Source: a virus
Direction: 5' to 3' (one strand)
IMG/VR virus record: IMGVR_UViG_3300025941_000034
Span: 1 to 50,052 of that record
DNA length: 50,052 bases
Each line of letters opens with the position of its first letter. The stretch's first letter is position 1. Positions 6,942 to 37,189 of the stretch are shown piece after piece. The notes under the pieces were generated by a model. It searched no databases, was not told the origin of the DNA, and worked only from the letters and a program-made list of their open reading frames with translations. A program made the position numbers and the translations under genes.

Positions 6942-8173
6942 TGGCTAAGTTGACGTTAACTGATCTGGCGAATCTGCAGAATGAAACTACAGCAGTTAAC
7001 GCCATCAATGCTAATAACACGGCAATTGAGACTGCACTAGAAAATACTCTATCCAGAGACGGTACTACTCCCAATACGATGAGTGCCTCTCTGGATATGA
7101 ACTCCAATCGTATCCTCAATCTACCTGATGCTATCTCTGATCAAGAACCTCTTACTCTAGGTCAGATACAAGCAGTACTAATCCCTGGACCACAGGGAGA
7201 CCCTGGTGATACAGGTCCCCAAGGTCCTCAAGGAGATACAGGCCCAATTGGCCCTGAAGGACCTACTGGTCCTACTGGCCCTACCGGTCCTACTGGTTCT
7301 GGTTCTGGTGACGTACTAGGCCCTGCGACTAACACAGACAACAACATTCCTCTATGGAATGGGGCTAATACCAAGACCCTGAAAGATGGATTAACTCCTT
7401 CTACTCTAGGACTAGCTCTGTTGGGTTCTGCGACTAAGACTGCTCATGGAGTGATCTTAGGCAATGGAACTTCGGCCTTCGGCGTTACCGCAGCTATGAC
7501 TGATGGCCAGCTGTTGGTTGGTCAATCAGGAGCTGATCCTCTCCCCAAGACTGCAAGTGGCGATGCCACTGTAGCAGCCTCTGGGGCTATTGCTGTAACT
7601 AAAACCGGTGGAGTAAGCTTTGCTGCGTCTGCTACAACAGATACTACAGTCGCTAGTAATATTAGCTCTGGCACCCTTGGTGCTGGGCGTATGCCTGCTC
7701 TTACTGGCGATGTCACTACTTCTGCTGGTGCCGTTGCAACCACCATAGCTGCTGGAGCTGTTACCTATGCTAAGGTAGCCTCTGGTTCTATTGCGTCTGG
7801 TGCTGAATACCAAGCGGCTACTGCTAGCAAGCTTCTGTCTGCTGCTGGTGTATGGTCTGCTGGTGCTCTCACTACTCTAACTGATGGTGCTACTATTACT
7901 CCTGACTTCAGTGCAGGTATTAACTTCGTAGTTACTTTGGGAGGGAACCGTACCTTAGCTGCTCCGTCTAATACAAAGGTCGGTCAGTCTGGTATTATCA
8001 TTATCAAACAGGACGGTACTGGAAGTAGGACTCTGACATTCAACTCAGCTTATAAATTCGCTGGTGGAACTGATCCTTCTTTAACTTCTACAGCCAGTGC
8101 TACTGATATTCTTTACTATATCGTAGAAGACTCTACACATATCCATTGTTCTCTAACCAGTAATAGTTCGTAA
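6941..8173 (+). CDS. Tail fibre-like protein with collagen-like Gly-X-Y repeat
   Basis: The 410-residue protein has a short helical N terminus and then a collagen-like stretch at about residues 81-122 (repeated G-P-Q/T and G-D-T triplets). A long beta-rich shaft with Ala/Thr/Gly repeats follows, and a C-terminal domain at about 310-410 contains GGNRTLAAP. Such triplet repeats form trimeric fibres. It starts on the TAATG overlap with the previous gene. It may be a side fibre or capsid fibre; adsorption function is an inference. Confidence 0.82.
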
Positions 8174-24190: not shown

Positions 24191-24510
24191 TCTGTAGGAA
24201 CCTCTTTTATTGCCCATTTGAAACCGTGTTTGTCGGCCCATTTGATTTGACTGGACCTTCTAGAATAGAAGACGAAACGAATATCCATTTCAGGGTGTTG
24301 CCTCTTAACTGCCACCATTTTGCGTTTGGCCTCTGGTCGTAAATATCCTTTAGCTTCAACATAGACTGTTCCAAGTTTTGTTTCGATAATGAAGTCTGGG
24401 ATGTAGTGGCCAGCGATGACATAGGGTATCTTCTCCCTTTCGTACTTAAACTTAACTTTCTTCTTCTTGAGAAACCGTTCTATGGATTTCTCGAATTCAT
24501 TTCTAGGCAA
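24172..24510 (-). CDS. T7 endonuclease I-type Holliday junction resolvase
   Basis: The 112-residue protein would cut branched DNA during replication and packaging. It has the family's active-site layout: a Glu in the first helix (EFEKSIE), then IPDF with Asp39, and VEAKG with Glu52 and Lys54, followed by KRQHPEMDIRFVF and WADKHGFKWA. T7 gp3 is slightly longer (149). It overlaps the exonuclease gene upstream by 8 bases, forming a nuclease pair. Confidence 0.9.
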   Translation of the reverse strand: MPRNEFEKSIERFLKKKKVKFKYEREKIPYVIAGHYIPDFIIETKLGTVYVEAKGYLRPEAKRKMVAVKRQHPEMDIRFVFYSRRSSQIKWADKHGFKWAIKEVPTEWLQGL

Positions 24511-25357
24511 TTAATTCTTTAACGTCAGGAGTTCTGACAACCTTTGTTAAGTAGACCGGTCCGGAGGAGTATAGGAAAGTTCGAAGGTGTGGGAAGCAAC
24601 AGTGTTTATAAGCCGAGTAGCTAGCTTTAACATCGAGCTGTATGTTCCCAGACGAACCGGAAGGGGTAGTTCCACATTCGCAAGGAGGCGGCTCTGCCTG
24701 TGCAACGATTCGCTTATAGAGATCAATTCTTTGTCTAAGCTTTTGCTCTCGCTCATCAGTGACCTCGTGCTTATATGTTACCATATGGCCTAGCTGCTTG
24801 TCAATGGCAAGAAGATACCCGTACCTCTTGTTAGTGACCAAAGGATCATTACGGGAAGCCACCACATACCCGTCAAGTTGATCCAAATAACCAAAGCTAT
24901 CGCTTTCCTTGATGGTCTTATCTTTGAATTTCTGAAAACTCCTAGTAGCACTAGATTTGACGTCAACGATGCAACCGTCAATGACACAATCGCGATGCCC
25001 CACAATGCCATCAAGTTCCAGTTCATCCTGTTCTCCCTGGACATCGTGGCCTGATGCTTTAGCAAGAGCTATGACCAGGGCTTCGAGTATGTGACCAAAC
25101 GCGAATTTAACTTCGACCCAAGGCGGTGGTGTCTCTCCCATCTCAGGTTGGTGTATCGAAAACCATAATGCTTTTGGACAAACTGGACCCATCTTCGACA
25201 AGCGAAGTGTAGGTTTGCGGGGATCAGCTCCGAGCTGTCCTTGGAGGCGCCTTGATATATCAGCGGAAAGTCCATCTGCGAGAGCAGCGTCGAACCAGCC
25301 ATCGGTCTTCTCCAAGAGATTGTATATGTCAGGTACTAAAGTAGAAATATCTTTCAT
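24503..25357 (-). CDS. PD-(D/E)XK exonuclease (RecB/Cas4-like)
   Basis: From the ATG at 25357 (ATGA overlap with the upstream stop) the protein has 284 residues. The nuclease motifs are LRLSKMGPVCPKALW (51-65), GHRD (120-123), VDVKS (131-135, Asp132 and Lys134) and the QxxxY-type DQLDGY (159-164). It fills the slot of T7 gp6 5'-3' exonuclease. Cys60, Cys226, Cys228 and Cys253/254 are placed as in Cas4/AddB proteins, with one Cys early and three late, so an iron-sulphur cluster is possible. A longer form from 25474 would overlap the upstream gene and is rejected. Confidence 0.88.
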   Translation of the reverse strand: MKDISTLVPDIYNLLEKTDGWFDAALADGLSADISRRLQGQLGADPRKPTLRLSKMGPVCPKALWFSIHQPEMGETPPPWVEVKFAFGHILEALVIALAKASGHDVQGEQDELELDGIVGHRDCVIDGCIVDVKSSATRSFQKFKDKTIKESDSFGYLDQLDGYVVASRNDPLVTNKRYGYLLAIDKQLGHMVTYKHEVTDEREQKLRQRIDLYKRIVAQAEPPPCECGTTPSGSSGNIQLDVKASYSAYKHCCFPHLRTFLYSSGPVYLTKVVRTPDVKELIA

Positions 25358-25650
25358 TTCAATAGTGGAGCGATAATAGCGTACTTCTGGATGAACCCTA
25401 ATAAGAGGGACAGATACAGGTAGCCCACAAATGGGCCTGCAACAAATCCCGCGATTGTGATCAAACTCAAGCACTCTAAGAAGGAGAAGACAACAGGCTT
25501 AGGCTTGTCCTCTTCTTTCTTCTTTTTAATCTTCTCTTCCACATCCTTTCTAATGTCTTCCAATGTTTTGTTATTCTCGATAAGTTCAGCTAGTGTCGGT
25601 TCTCTGGTGGGATAACCCATCCACCCTGGCGGTGGGCCATATCCATACAT
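25354..25650 (-). CDS. Membrane protein upstream of the exonuclease
   Basis: The 98-residue protein has a Gly/Pro/Tyr-rich N terminus, a Lys/Glu helix (about 25-50) and one or two C-terminal membrane segments (about 55-95). It has a clear GGAGAG ribosome site and an ATGA overlap with the exonuclease. It is the first gene after the structured RNA locus. Function unknown. Confidence 0.75.
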   Translation of the reverse strand: MYGYGPPPGWMGYPTREPTLAELIENNKTLEDIRKDVEEKIKKKKEEDKPKPVVFSFLECLSLITIAGFVAGPFVGYLYLSLLLGFIQKYAIIAPLLK

Positions 25651-25752
25651 GATAACTCTCCTTTCTTGGGGCCTCAGGAACGGGGCAGCTGATCAACGGC
25701 CTACCTTTCGGTAGTCTGTCTTCCGGACCTTGCCCCGCTCCTTGGCCCTTCC

Positions 25753-25827
25753 TTAAGGAGGCTGCCTCGGGGCAAAGAGAATTACTATCCACCTACGATC
25801 AGGCATGAGTACGGGGTTTGTTTCCAT
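25753..25827 (-). CDS. Possible 24-residue leader peptide in the RNA locus
   Basis: A tiny frame starts 4 bases after an AGGAGCG ribosome site that closely resembles the site of a real gene upstream (start 28054). The product is Pro/Arg-rich with a short hydrophobic stretch. It lies inside a highly structured RNA, so it could be a real micro-protein or leader peptide, or chance. Confidence 0.3.
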   Translation of the reverse strand: METNPVLMPDRRWIVILFAPRQPP

Positions 25828-26043
25828 TGCTCGCTCCTGTGTCGGTTGCTCCACGCGGTGGCCAGAATGAGGGATTACGATCGTTGAGTTACCCATCGGA
25901 TTTCTGCCTTTGCATCGCCAACCATGTAACGGTCAACTAGGCATACGTTCCTACTCCTACCTCACAGCGATCTACCACTTTATGAACCATTGCCCCTTCC
26001 CTTCGGGTCACGGTCCTTCCTGCCAAGCGTCATCCCATCCAGT

Positions 26044-26420
26044 CTAGTCTCAGCGATATGATGCCTGCCACTAGAACAGTCCTTACACCTTCCTCAGAAG
26101 AAGGTTAGGGGCTATGGGGAATTCAACCCATGCGTCTACCAATTGCGCCAGGGGGAGCTGTCCCCCGCAGGATTTGAACCTGCAACAATGGGCTTATGCT
26201 TTTGGTCCTGTTCGCCTTGAACCCGTCTCACGGGCGGAGGATTCGCACCTTCCATCGGACCTCTCACCGGTATTGTTCCATAGGAACTGGGGTCGAACCA
26301 GTATGAGCAGACTTTCACATCTGCCGCATGACCTAAGGCTACCTCGTCCTCTTCGGAGTCGATTATACTGATGTGGACTCGAACCACACCTAGCCCATAT
26401 TCTGCCATCCTACAGACTAG
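26044..26420 (-). other. Split group I intron-like pairing around the permuted tRNA
   Basis: Downstream of the permuted tRNA is GCTGAGACTAGACTGG (26054-26039), close to the R element of group I introns. Upstream is CTAGTCT (26420-26414), a perfect seven-base complement of AGACTAG (26050-26044), as expected for P7. The order is S-like element, tRNA 3' half, tRNA 5' half, R-like element, which is the order of a permuted intron-exon. I could not complete P3 to P6, so this stays tentative. Confidence 0.35.
26121..26198 (-). tRNA. Circularly permuted tRNA (3' half before 5' half)
   Basis: Read on the minus strand: the anticodon-stem 3' strand CCCAT (26192-26188), variable TGTT, a T arm with perfect stem GCAGG/CCTGC and loop TTCAAAT, and the acceptor 3' strand GGGGGA (26166-26161). 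A 4-base linker CAGC follows. Then come the acceptor 5' strand TCCCCC (26156-26151), TG, a D arm GCG/CGC with GG in the loop, and the anticodon-stem 5' strand ATGGG (26131-26127), pairing perfectly with CCCAT. All four stems form, but only if the halves are swapped. The anticodon depends on the unknown joint: CAT (Met), GTA or GAA are possible. No CCA is encoded. Confidence 0.68.
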
Positions 26421-26993
26421 GAATACGTCAGGTGAGTCTTACCTAGCTTTATCTCGCTAGGCTAATCCTTAGCCGGATCGTACTTTCACCCCCACGTCTA
26501 AACGTGCCAGAGTTACTGTGACACCGTTCCTTCCGAAGGGACCGCCCTCAGGAGAGAGTCCAGGCGTGTCAGGATACCAGCGTCGCTCTGTTTGCATGTA
26601 ACGATGTGTGGTCTCTTGCCCATCACACCGGATGTTGATTCTCTTCTTTCTGTCCAGACAAACGGATTTGCACCGACGCTCTTTCCTCTAAAGCGTATCC
26701 TAGTGATTATCCCTGGACGAGCGATTTCTCTGTCGAGCTATACAAGTCACCTGGACAAGCTATAACTACAGGACCGCTACGCTCATTCACGGGTAGAAGA
26801 GGGACATCTCTCCTCAGCTGTTTTAGTTCCCATCGCTGAGTAAACGGATAGTCTTTGCCCTGCTTCCAGGACTGACATCAGTACCTTTCGCTTCATTCAC
26901 AGAAAGACGGTTGCACTGACGTGTGAGCACAGTGATTTGGAGTTCGCTGTGCTGCTGCAAGAGAGGTACGCAAAGCCTCTATCTTATCTAGCC

Positions 26994-27060
26994 CTCTCCC
27001 CAGGGGGATTGAACCCACTACAGCCCGCCGGTAAACAGCCGGTGCTAAGGATCGTTGGGA
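26994..27060 (-). tRNA. Degenerate tRNA-Asn-like sequence
   Basis: An anticodon arm (CCGG, loop CTGTTTA, CCGG; anticodon GTT) is followed in normal order by a T arm (GTGGG, loop TTCAATC, CCCCC; one mismatch) and an acceptor-like GGGGAG that can pair with CTCCC at 27061-27057. Only about 11 bases separate that acceptor strand from the anticodon stem, so a D arm is missing. It may be a decayed tRNA, a D-armless one, or a piece of the larger RNA structure. Confidence 0.35.
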
Positions 27061-27152
27061 GTCTAGACAGACCTGATGGTTGTAAGGGGGTCAAGGGAGA
27101 GCACTATCCCCCTTGGTGGTGCCGTTAGACCATAGCGATTTTAACTTGCTAA

Positions 27153-27689
27153 TTAAAATTTAACCTGCACAGCTGGCTCAACACCATCTATGCCTTTAGT
27201 TAACTTCATTTCCTCTTCGTCGAAGTCTTTACGGCCTTCATAAGGGATTAAGTTATCCACTCTAGAAGACTCCCACCTGATAGCTCTGCCTCTCTTACCG
27301 GGACTGCCAGGTTGGTTATAGGAATAGACTGCAATCTTTGTGATTACATCTGAACCGTTACCAACGAAGACACCCCTTAAAGGTGGGCTAGAACCATCAG
27401 GCAAGGTCATGGAGCCGTCGAGCACAACGGGAGGTTCAAAAGCAACTATCTTACCTTTGATCTCTTTACTAGAAGGGCGAGAAATAGAGATATACTCTCC
27501 ATCCTCATCTTTCCTGATCTCATTCTTAATACCGGACATAGTAGGAGTAGACTCTTTAAGCTTCCAAAGAATCTTCAAACTATCTGCATCTGGATATAAT
27601 ACGTGAGAACGCTTACCCCATTCATTGGGTTTCTCAGGGCGGAACCATTTAGTCTTGCCCTTCAAGTATACAAATTCAGTCTTAGCCAT
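27153..27689 (-). CDS. Single-stranded DNA-binding protein (phage gp2.5-like role)
   Basis: The 178-residue protein matches the podovirus SSB pattern: KGKTKWFRPEKPNEWGKRS..LYPD near the start, GIKNEIRKDEDGEYISISRP in the middle, then PPVVLDG and FVGNGSDVITKIAVYSY. The C terminus is acidic (DFDEEEMK) before a short tail. It would coat single strands at the replication fork beside polymerase and helicase. It overlaps the upstream small gene by 8 bases. Confidence 0.88.
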   Translation of the reverse strand: MAKTEFVYLKGKTKWFRPEKPNEWGKRSHVLYPDADSLKILWKLKESTPTMSGIKNEIRKDEDGEYISISRPSSKEIKGKIVAFEPPVVLDGSMTLPDGSSPPLRGVFVGNGSDVITKIAVYSYNQPGSPGKRGRAIRWESSRVDNLIPYEGRKDFDEEEMKLTKGIDGVEPAVQVKF

Positions 27690-28063: not shown

Positions 28064-30055
28064 CTAGTGTGTCACGTACCAATTAGTTCCGATAGTGTAG
28101 TCTTTCTTATCTTCATTCCAATAACTACCGGCTAATGGGCAGTTCAGTCCAAGTTCTTCTCCTACAATACGTAGGCTATCTGCTTGCATCTTTGCTATTT
28201 CTAGTGCTACCTCCATATTGTTAGGGGTCTCAGTTTGCCACTCATCGTGGACGAAATTAACTAACTTGCAATCCATGCCAGCTAACTTATCGAACCACTT
28301 AAGAGTGGCTCGTTTCATAACGATAGCTTCTCCGTTTTGGAGGTATCCTGACATGCAGAGGTGTCTTCGGTCTCCCACGGTATTACCTGGAATGAGAACT
28401 TTTCGTCCGTCAAGCCCTGTAAAATATCCGGCTTTAGCGTCAGCTGGAAACCTTTCTCGCTTAAGGACATTAAACCCTGGATACCTTTCGTTGAATTTAT
28501 CAACAGCCTCTCGCGCTTGTTCTTGTGAACAGTCCAATATTTCAGCAAATTTCCCAACGCCTCCACCAAGAAGAAGCGCATATAGGAATCGTTTTGCTGC
28601 GGCTCGGGTTTTACATATTTCCCCGAGTACCCGTTGATTAAGGGAGTGGGGATCGGTTTTATTATCTTTTCTTCCATCTACTAAGCTCTGTGTTAATTCA
28701 GGATCATTAACGTAATGAGCAAATATCCTAAGCTGAATACCTTCGGCGTCTACTCCCACGAGCAAGCGCTTCTTGGGGGCACACCAGAGAGATCGGAGTT
28801 CTTTACCGAAGAACTTCTTCGATCCATCTTCTCTGAATTCGTTGGGGATGTTCGCTGTGTTGGGCTCTTGATGAGCCATGCGATGAGTCCAGGCTCCTAT
28901 GCCATAAAACTTACCGTGTATACGTCCATCTGGCTGGACAAGATCACACCATTCGGTGAGAGTCCTGCGTCTGCTTTCTAAGACGATACGTTTAGCTAGG
29001 AGCCTGGCCGGGGCGGGAGACGAACTAGGTAACGTGCTTAAATTCTCTTCATTAATTTTGTAGCCGTATACCTTCAGTGTCTCTAGTTTACCATTCAAAG
29101 TATTTAAGTCAAGTTCCTTAGTGGGACTATGTGAATACTTTAGTCGATTGATCTCTCTTTCGGTTTCAATGTGGGTCTTCGTTTTGTCTGTAGGATGCCA
29201 TCCAGCTTGCTGTAGAACATCCACAATCTGTTTATGACTAGAAGGATTAAACTCTTTCCACGCAATCCGTGTAAATGGTCCCCCGTTATATTCAGAGAGA
29301 TCACCATCCTTAATCCATCTAAAGTCACTTCGGTTGAGAGTTCCAAACTTTGTGAGCTTAGGGTGTATTTCTCTGATCGCCGTGGGCCTAGCAGGGAAGG
29401 CATTGAGTATGTCTCCATCTAGTTTTGCTAAGTCTGCGGTTATAGTTTCGAGGTAACCAGTAGCACGATTAAGATTAAAATAGAAGCCGTTTTCATGTAG
29501 TGCGTTAAGAACACGCTGGAAACTTTGTTCTGTTTGTAGACTACCACTCCTCTCCCAATCAGGAAGATCAGCCACAAGCTTAAGGAATACTTGATGATTA
29601 ATCTCAACATCTCTAACACAGTAATCCTCCAGTTCTTGAGACCACTGTTTGAAGAAGAGTGTGGATTTGTTCTCTAGTTTTTCTTGTCCAATTTCTCTGC
29701 CAAATGCATCAAGTGAGTGGCCTTGAAGTCTTGAGTAGTCCACCAACTTAGACATACAGAGAGTATCAAAGACTTTAAGCTTGGTCTCTGCGGTGGAATT
29801 GGAATAAATGTCCCAGTGAGAAGAGAGGCCACAAGGAATAAGAAGCCTATGTATAACAGGCAGATCGTACCCAAGGATATTGTGACCAATAACAGTATCA
29901 ACAGTTCCGGCAAACTTAATAAAAGCCTCAGGGCTTTCTTGAACATCTCTAAATATCCTCGTCTCTTCGGTGTCTATGTCTTTACAGACTATACACCAAA
30001 TCTTATCTGGGTTCTCTAACCCATTAGCTTCTATGTCTAATACTATTCTTCCCAA
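28064..30055 (-). CDS. Family A DNA polymerase with 3'-5' exonuclease (T7 gp5 type)
   Basis: The 663-residue replicative polymerase has exonuclease motifs LDIEANG (Asp7, Glu9), GHNILGYDLP (Asp64) and YCVRDVEIN (Asp149). Polymerase motif A is VGVDAEGIQLR (Asp436), the O-helix is RAAAKRFLYALLLGGG (484-499) and motif C is VHDEW (His603-Asp604-Glu605). The start is a TTG at 30055, inside the upstream small gene. No in-frame ATG precedes the first exonuclease motif. Length is close to T7 gp5 (704). Confidence 0.95.
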   Translation of the reverse strand: MGRIVLDIEANGLENPDKIWCIVCKDIDTEETRIFRDVQESPEAFIKFAGTVDTVIGHNILGYDLPVIHRLLIPCGLSSHWDIYSNSTAETKLKVFDTLCMSKLVDYSRLQGHSLDAFGREIGQEKLENKSTLFFKQWSQELEDYCVRDVEINHQVFLKLVADLPDWERSGSLQTEQSFQRVLNALHENGFYFNLNRATGYLETITADLAKLDGDILNAFPARPTAIREIHPKLTKFGTLNRSDFRWIKDGDLSEYNGGPFTRIAWKEFNPSSHKQIVDVLQQAGWHPTDKTKTHIETEREINRLKYSHSPTKELDLNTLNGKLETLKVYGYKINEENLSTLPSSSPAPARLLAKRIVLESRRRTLTEWCDLVQPDGRIHGKFYGIGAWTHRMAHQEPNTANIPNEFREDGSKKFFGKELRSLWCAPKKRLLVGVDAEGIQLRIFAHYVNDPELTQSLVDGRKDNKTDPHSLNQRVLGEICKTRAAAKRFLYALLLGGGVGKFAEILDCSQEQAREAVDKFNERYPGFNVLKRERFPADAKAGYFTGLDGRKVLIPGNTVGDRRHLCMSGYLQNGEAIVMKRATLKWFDKLAGMDCKLVNFVHDEWQTETPNNMEVALEIAKMQADSLRIVGEELGLNCPLAGSYWNEDKKDYTIGTNWYVTH

Positions 30056-35208: not shown

Positions 35209-36906
35209 CTAGGCAGCCTTGCCTTTGGCTGCTTCACGGAGACGCCGAATTCGATCTGCCGGAGACTCCGCTGGTTGAGCAGGAGCTGCAACAGGTTCTT
35301 CGGTCTTGGTTTCCGCCTTCGGCTTGGACATGCCGACTAACTCAGGCTTGAGTTCGACCAACATGTTAAGCAGATCACGGATGACGATGCTGGTGGCGAA
35401 CTTATGTTGCTCACACAGCCATTGGATAGAACGCCTCGGAAGCCGAATGAAGTCCTCCAGTTTGTAACCAGTCTGCTGGAAGAACGACTGATACGGTTCC
35501 TCTGCGCCCTTGATCTTCTCTGGGTCGACCAAGGCCACGTTCTTGAGATACTCGGTGATGTCCTTCCGTGCTTGAGGAAGCAAGATGGGCATCGTCTCGG
35601 CAGGAGCCGACACAACCTCCGGCTCATCAGGATACTTGTCTGCATCCTTCTCGACCAGAGCCTGCACAGTGCCTGCAGGTGCCTTGGCGTAGGCACTGGA
35701 AGCCTTGAGCAACGAACGTGGGATACCGTTCTTGCGAACGTCATCCGCGTTGTGGCTGGCCGAGTTCTGGAAGTTGTTGTTGACCCAGTTCTTGATCTGA
35801 CGGTTCTTGGTCAACTTGGCCGGTGGGAAGATACGTTCGTCCTTACCTGCGGTGGAAGGAACAGCCGTATCCGTCTTGGGTTTCTCCACAATAGGAACAG
35901 AGGTAGGCTGTGGAGCGATGGGGGAAGTCGAAGCAACAACCGGTGCTTTACCAGCTGCTGCAGCGCGTATCCGGGCAATACGTTCCGCAGGGGTTTCTGC
36001 CTTAGCCGGCGGACCCTGAACTTCCACCACCTTGACCTCTGTCTTGATCTCATCCACAGGACGAGACATGTTGCCCCAAGGCAAGTTCAAAGCCAACTCG
36101 TTCTTGGGGTAGTGGATCATGCGTCCTGCACAATCGAATAACGTGAGGAACCCACGGGGAGTCCACAGATTGCCGAAGTCCTTGCGGACAACAGCAGTAT
36201 CCAGGCGACCCATTAGTTTAGTAAGGTCCTTCCCGCAGGCTTCATATGCCTCGTTGATCTTCTCGAAAATATATTCGCTGAAAGCGTAGTACTCCGGAGA
36301 ATGGGAGTCCTCCCTGTCGTAACCTGGGAATGTACCTTCCAGGAAAGCAACAAGCTTCATGTGGTTGTCGTCACCGATTATGATAGGAAAAGGCTGCTTA
36401 TCCTCGTCCATCACATCGCCGTCCTTGTACCTCTGACCGAACAGGACGACACGGTGATCTCCGAGAATCTCCAAGGTCTCGGACAATGCTGTGATCGTAG
36501 CATTGGCATCAGCCTTGGCATTCTCGAACACTTCAGTGTTGATCTTGCCTTGGTCTGCATAGGACACAGAGATTTGTCCATTGAAGTTATTGCAGACACC
36601 TTGAATTACATCGGGAGGGATGCTTGCCTTTGCACCCTTCTCGACTATTAGTCCCTCATGCATATGTCTGTCCTCGTACTTAGGCAGCCTGTTAACCCGT
36701 TGCTGAATTGCTGCCTTCAACTCAGCTGGGAGCCTAGGAATAAAAGTACAAAGCAAACCATAGTAGCCTGAATGATTACCTAGTCGAGTGTATGCTGTAG
36801 TCTTTTCCTCCAGTGTTATTAGGTTTCGATTGAAGCTCTCTTCTAAAGCTTCTACTATGCAGTCTTCCACATGAGACCTAACCCATGCGTTCCTCCATTT
36901 GCCCAT
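35209..36906 (-). CDS. Large unknown protein with repeated RIRRLREAA-type motif
   Basis: I start at the ATG at 36906, which has GGAGGG upstream, giving 565 residues. A longer frame would run through the tRNA gene and is rejected. The N-terminal 290 residues look globular. Then come a Pro/Ala/Thr-rich linker, a second globular part (about 395-540) and another linker. Two copies of a helix motif occur, TPAERIARIRAAAAGKA (about 302-318) and SPADRIRRLREAAKGKA (about 548-564). Codons are more GC-rich than in the polymerase. No known domain was seen. Confidence 0.8.
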   Translation of the reverse strand: MGKWRNAWVRSHVEDCIVEALEESFNRNLITLEEKTTAYTRLGNHSGYYGLLCTFIPRLPAELKAAIQQRVNRLPKYEDRHMHEGLIVEKGAKASIPPDVIQGVCNNFNGQISVSYADQGKINTEVFENAKADANATITALSETLEILGDHRVVLFGQRYKDGDVMDEDKQPFPIIIGDDNHMKLVAFLEGTFPGYDREDSHSPEYYAFSEYIFEKINEAYEACGKDLTKLMGRLDTAVVRKDFGNLWTPRGFLTLFDCAGRMIHYPKNELALNLPWGNMSRPVDEIKTEVKVVEVQGPPAKAETPAERIARIRAAAAGKAPVVASTSPIAPQPTSVPIVEKPKTDTAVPSTAGKDERIFPPAKLTKNRQIKNWVNNNFQNSASHNADDVRKNGIPRSLLKASSAYAKAPAGTVQALVEKDADKYPDEPEVVSAPAETMPILLPQARKDITEYLKNVALVDPEKIKGAEEPYQSFFQQTGYKLEDFIRLPRRSIQWLCEQHKFATSIVIRDLLNMLVELKPELVGMSKPKAETKTEEPVAAPAQPAESPADRIRRLREAAKGKAA

Positions 36907-36950
36907 TCTTCCCTCCTTAGGCAAAGTAAGAGAAAGCATTAAATATAAAA

Positions 36951-37036
36951 TGGTGCCCGCAGCAGGATTCGAACCTGCAAGCCCCGAAGGGCCAGGGATT
37001 TTAAGTCCCTTGCGTCTACCGTTTCGCCATGCGGGC
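36951..37036 (-). tRNA. tRNA-Leu (anticodon TAA), CCA encoded
   Basis: A complete 86-base class II tRNA: acceptor GCCCGCA/TGCGGGC, D arm GCG/CGC with GGTAGA in the loop, anticodon arm with CTTAAAA (anticodon TAA), a long variable arm (CCTTCGGGG) and T arm GCAGG/CCTGC with TTCGAAT, ending ACCA. It lies between two minus-strand genes, and the upstream gene's stop codon falls inside it. Confidence 0.96.
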
Positions 37037-37189
37037 ATTGAAACTAGAAACAATCTTCTTAATCTTATCAATAGGTCCCGGCTTATTCGTTGCACACTTC
37101 CTGCACTTATTGACATAGGTAACCCCTGACGTCCGTTTGCTCGCACCAGGGCTGGTTTTACCGCATGTACGACAGTAGATAGTGGACAT
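37016..37189 (-). CDS. Small zinc-ribbon protein ending inside tRNA-Leu
   Basis: The 57-residue protein has CRTCG near the N terminus and CRKC further on, a four-Cys zinc ribbon, with a basic linker. The last residues are encoded by the 5' end of tRNA-Leu, and its TAG is in the tRNA D loop. AAGG lies upstream. Confidence 0.65.
   Translation of the reverse strand: MSTIYCRTCGKTSPGASKRTSGVTYVNKCRKCATNKPGPIDKIKKIVSSFNARMAKR

Follow-up and report, generated by a model that had tools for sequence, protein, structure and literature searches.

Does a phage encode a circularly permuted tRNA gene, or an RNA that shares parts of the tRNA architecture without being a tRNA? This question is raised by a minus-strand locus in a 50,052-base IMG/VR virus record (the window, i.e., the whole stretch of DNA that was analyzed), where the first-pass annotation proposed a permuted tRNA whose halves would have to be joined. 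Judging from its predicted genes (terminase, head-tail adaptor, major head protein, internal virion protein, family A DNA polymerase and primase-helicase), the window is a podovirus-like phage. Comparisons of its polymerase and terminase identified roseophages and other Cobavirinae as the closest isolated relatives, and the phage belongs to an uncultured clade of distant kin of the Cobavirinae. A DNA similarity search of the noncoding region that holds the locus yielded no match among isolated phages, and no long gap separates the polymerase from the exonuclease in the relatives CRP-5, CRP-13 and phiM6. The exonuclease of the clade was also sought in bacterial genomes, and none was found.

Anatomy and significance of the module

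The tRNA-like module lies in a noncoding region (25651-27152, minus strand) that is syntenic with noncoding regions of 1.2-4 kb in about 50 related phages. The region is flanked upstream by a predicted gene of 178 aa with no assigned role (27153-27689, minus strand), which is kept across the clade, and downstream by a clade-conserved Cas4-like exonuclease (24503-25474, minus strand). The family A DNA polymerase (28064-30055, minus strand) served as the anchor for finding relatives. Elsewhere in the window, ARAGORN called a canonical tRNA-Leu(TAA) at 36951-37036 on the minus strand, as it did in relatives L164, L169 and L170. In the window this tRNA falls within the 5' part of an open frame of 645 aa (35209-37146), whose true start is probably located further downstream.

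All four stems that had been described on the minus strand are present between 26194 and 26125. Read in this direction, the module consists of a closing stem, a T-arm, an acceptor-like hairpin, U8-G9, a D-arm and the other strand of the closing stem. The 5' strand of the closing stem, analogous to an anticodon stem, is AGCCCAT (26188-26194) and its 3' strand is ATGGGTT (26125-26131). Between them lie the T-arm GCAGG-TTCAAAT-CCTGC (26167-26183), the acceptor-like hairpin GGGGGA-CAGC-TCCCCC (26151-26166), which has six pairs and is closed by a tetraloop, the dinucleotide TG corresponding to tRNA positions U8 and 9 (26149-26150), and a D-arm of tRNA-Leu type, GCG-CAATTGGTAGA-CGC (26132-26148). 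Because the acceptor-like loop has only 4 nt (CAGC), no CCA is encoded in the module of the window. Folding predictions indicate that the isolated strand of 72 nt adopts the module fold; in a 111-nt fold, ATGGG can instead form a local hairpin with a second, downstream CCCCAT. The T-arm of the phage's tRNA-Leu is identical to that of the module but for one base and the D-arm of the module is of Leu type, which, by inference from these sequences, makes it plausible that the module had a separate origin, derived from tRNA-Leu.

The module is unlikely to have arisen by chance. The full T-hairpin-T-D pattern was found once in the real window and in none of 200 dinucleotide-shuffled windows. Perfect T-arms occurred at a rate of 0.2 per shuffled window, relative to four in the real window; these four are all on the minus strand and one of them belongs to the canonical tRNA-Leu. 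When the halves were swapped, the cloverleaf was restored and ARAGORN called a tRNA in 38 of the 39 trial junctions, and it called none in the native order. Finally, a covariance model built from the relatives only, with the window left out, scored the module of the window at 44.4 bits (E ~1e-13, with rough calibration). These results confirm the tRNA-like permuted topology that was proposed from the sequence.

Conservation among related phages

We gathered 73 related loci using the DNA polymerase, many of them on contigs of 48-53 kb. In about 50 of these loci, the polymerase is followed by the 178-aa gene, the long noncoding region and the exonuclease, in this order, and ARAGORN detected no canonical tRNA in the scanned noncoding regions of the clade. 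With covariance models, a single strong copy of the permuted module per phage was recovered, both in the window and in each of 16 distinct relatives. All 17 modules are on the gene strand and occupy the same noncoding region between the DNA polymerase and the Cas4-like exonuclease. The module was found in about one third of the noncoding regions of the clade, and the other two thirds lacked a clear module under the covariance models used: in these regions we found either T-arms, some of them in a related T-hairpin-D form, or none.

A MAFFT alignment of the whole noncoding regions revealed essentially no alignable primary sequence. In the alignment of the 17 modules, 98.5% of the cells pair and nine of the 13 pairs show changes in both partners. 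The score for covariation is 0.536, against 0.173 when shuffled and at most 0.179 in slid register; because the modules were aligned by fitting them to the structure, both pairing and this score are somewhat favored. The closing stems, which were left outside the covariance model used for the module search, pair better with their own partner than with mismatched ones (0 of 20,000 permutations). Their sequences include GGTTCTCGTT/GACGAGAACC in L161, CACTGACA/TGTCAGTG in L165 and CAACTCAC/GTGAGTTG in L177.

The comparison of the modules further separates retained from dispensable features. All 17 modules have T54, T55, C56, A58 and U8, and nearly all D-loops contain GG. The acceptor hairpin varies across relatives from 4 to 7 pairs, its loop spanning 3 to about 30 bases. 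L133 (with L136 as a near-duplicate), L139, L161 and L135 lack the hairpin, and a linker of 4-6 bases takes its place; the acceptor-less module of L161 is nonetheless predicted to fold cleanly. Some relatives carry additional hairpins in the acceptor loop, within the D-loop or next to the closing stem. No module of the 17 presents a CCA in register, and no conserved anticodon arm was found among the modules compared. The loss of the acceptor, the extra hairpins and the lack of CCA would be intolerable for a tRNA gene and tolerable for an elbow-shaped domain.

One of the additional elements, a hairpin with the loop (G)AGTATCCTAGAAA, was observed in the modules of L157, L162, L161 and L135, and also upstream in L139. 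Its position varies: it is found either in the acceptor loop or between the closing stem and the T-arm.

The surrounding noncoding region

Across the noncoding regions of the clade, perfect T-arms are concentrated on the gene strand (about 95, compared to 3 on the opposite strand), and so are Leu-type D-like motifs (16 compared to 0); these counts include a few near-duplicate loci. Three perfect T-arms of the window lie within 26388-26167: besides that of the module, ACTGG-TTCGACC-CCAGT (26286-26302, minus strand) and TGTGG-TTCGAGT-CCACA (26372-26388, minus strand), the latter preceded by the D-like TGGCAGAATATGGGCTAGG. A second T-arm-like hairpin, GAAGG-TGCGAAT-CCTCC (26236-26252, minus strand), is followed by a hairpin at 26235-26221; as a second T-hairpin-D unit, this stretch (26252-26221) is weak, with 9.1 bits only (R3).

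A hairpin with the motif TRATGCAAAGA occurs five times in the 17 module-bearing loci, each time 102-126 nt upstream of the module, and its stems show compensating changes. In addition, a CTGARGG-type motif was found at most 90 nt downstream of 8 of the 17 modules, relative to about 0.06 expected per module. Together with the strand bias of the T-arms and D-like motifs, these elements suggest that the module is part of something larger. Folding energies calculated over whole regions give an uneven signal (z of -2.4, -4.1, -4.4 and -0.4), and no Rfam family matched the noncoding region at gathering score in the window or in 11 relatives. From these predictions, the noncoding region is likely a single structured RNA.

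Several other arrangements were observed in these regions. A D-like TGGCAGAA stands directly before a T-arm in the window (26372-26407, minus strand) and in L135, L162 and L157; this is the normal order, with no permutation, and it resembles a tRNA minus its anticodon arm. A second T-hairpin-D unit is present in L140, L141, L147, L149 and L184, about 460-640 from the start of the region, and is composed of GTTGG-TTCGATY-CCAAC, CTCCGT-gtg-ACGGAG and CTG-GCG-GCAATGGTGG-CGC, with a different hairpin sequence in L141. An R-element-like GCTGAGACTAGACTGG stretch raised the idea of a permuted group I intron, which was rejected: Rfam gave no match to such an intron on either strand with E up to 10. 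No group I intron was detected in the 11 relatives at gathering score either.

Competing explanations and known systems

The most direct explanation would be a true circularly permuted tRNA gene, whose transcript would be circularized or joined at the anticodon loop, with RNase P and a 3' nuclease opening the acceptor loop. The swapped molecule passes ARAGORN, known genes of this type can have intervening sequences as short as 1 nt and junctions in the anticodon loop (PMC3978253), and the module of the window taken alone would also fit. However, the acceptor stem from which a chargeable tRNA would be released is missing in four homologous relatives (L133, L139, L161 and L135) and has 4-6 bp in most others, there is no CCA in register in any of the 17 modules and the anticodon arm is not conserved. 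BHB splicing is what permuted tRNAs known so far rely on (PMC3978253), and there is neither a group I intron match nor a detectable RtcB gene in the window. The claim that the halves are joined into a tRNA is thus not supported: a permuted tRNA gene is very unlikely here, and the module is probably not a tRNA gene. We consider it least probable of all that the module represents the remnants of tRNA genes in a decaying cluster. Such decay would account for tRNA-like arms without canonical tRNAs, and an intact phage tRNA-Leu with a nearly identical T-arm does exist elsewhere, but the pairs strongly covary in a sequence that is otherwise unalignable, and the core bases, strand and place are constant. 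These features point to selection rather than decay.

A third explanation is a bacterial-type Y RNA, in which the closing stem would lead to a Ro60-binding stem and the RNA would act with host Ro60 (Rsr) and PNPase. In its structure, YrlA is similar to three arms of tRNA (D, T and acceptor); DusA and TruB modify it, and it connects Rsr (Ro60) to PNPase (PMC8394870). The module presents the identical order (T-arm, acceptor-like hairpin and D-arm, closed by a stem), and Rfam YrlA (RF02553) is its best family match (29.4 bits, E of 0.0006-0.001), a score that is not specific in tRNA clusters, since tandem normal tRNAs and several control genomes, including E. coli, match as well. L094 provides an example of a phage YrlA beside a phage Ro60 gene: its match spans the full model at 54 bits, and TROVE is encoded on the same contig. 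However, the match covers positions 23-89 of the 114 of the model, i.e., the module part alone, and falls below the cut-off of 69 bits; the D-arm, being of tRNA-Leu type, differs from the YrlA consensus, and several relatives lose the acceptor hairpin. Moreover, no Ro60/TROVE gene was found in the window or in any of the 26 near-complete relatives (48-53 kb), and the positive control, L094, was detected. Ro60 could possibly be encoded by the host. Overall, we regard a genuine Y RNA as unlikely. Its example is nonetheless informative: YrlA has the swapped order yet is no tRNA, and the swapped order in the phage therefore does not imply a tRNA gene.

Permuted tRNA-like units were also observed in unrelated phages. 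Many matches of the first search for permuted patterns were ordinary tandem tRNAs. L094 carries two such units side by side (7984-8085 and 7868-7924, both on the minus strand), one of which is the full-length YrlA match. Stand-alone units lie within or beside tRNA genes in L098 (complement of 1-190), L096 (3401-3514, minus strand), L103, L039 and L088 (6453-6508, minus strand), with closing stems such as AAGACACA/TGTGTCTT and no Ro60 gene detected in these contigs. The unit of L098 retains an anticodon-like hairpin, AATGA-CTTAAAA-TCATT (Leu TAA).

We conclude that the module is most probably a mimic of the tRNA elbow within a larger noncoding RNA. The T-arm and the D-arm, linked by the acceptor-like hairpin and closed by a stem, would form one domain of a long RNA of this clade, and the whole noncoding region would be a single transcript. 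The T-loop and D-loop would dock as in tRNA, as suggested by the retained signatures of U8, A14, GG and TTCRA. Such an elbow mimic would need no joining of ends and would never become a tRNA. What the domain contributes may be its shape, either by docking a host factor that binds the tRNA elbow—by analogy with YrlA, a tRNA-modifying or processing enzyme would be a candidate—or by organizing the larger RNA. Any specific role is proposed with far less confidence than the mimicry itself. One idea is that the module may inhibit a tRNA-cutting nuclease, as suggested for YrlA (PMC7790460). More tentatively, and with somewhat more doubt than confidence, the regions of 1.2-4 kb could make up a single, large and previously undescribed class of phage noncoding RNA, in which several tRNA-elbow units, each combining a T-arm with a D-arm in an order that is permuted or lacks the anticodon, present tRNA-like surfaces to the host. 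If this were true, these surfaces might capture or divert tRNA-binding enzymes or tRNA-cutting defenses.

With the elbow mimic, permuted mimics of tRNA would exist in a second lineage, one that seems not to depend on Ro60 and in which selection seems to keep the elbow and not the acceptor end. The module also draws attention to a long noncoding region of this clade that is missing from Rfam 15. When phages are scanned for permuted tRNAs, modules of this kind should be regarded as mimics until a joined product has been observed.

Compared to the circularly permuted tRNA genes of algae and Thermofilum (PMC3978253), the phage module has no conserved anticodon or CCA, its acceptor is dispensable among relatives and it has shown no tRNA splicing motif. 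The candidate RNA is similar to GOLLD and ROOL (PMC12286853), which are large structured phage noncoding RNAs of the same size range, but the Rfam models of these families did not match the window or 11 relatives, and the region bears many T-arm-like hairpins with no adjoining tRNA island. YrlA differs in other respects: the phage module sits in a noncoding region of 1.5 kb without a phage Ro60 gene, and it has a Leu-type D-arm, an optional acceptor hairpin and a score below the cut-off. Yet both share the T-arm, the acceptor-like hairpin with a closed end, the D-arm and the closing stem, and YrlA, which also occurs in phages, is itself a tRNA mimic and never a tRNA (PMC8394870, PMC7765460).
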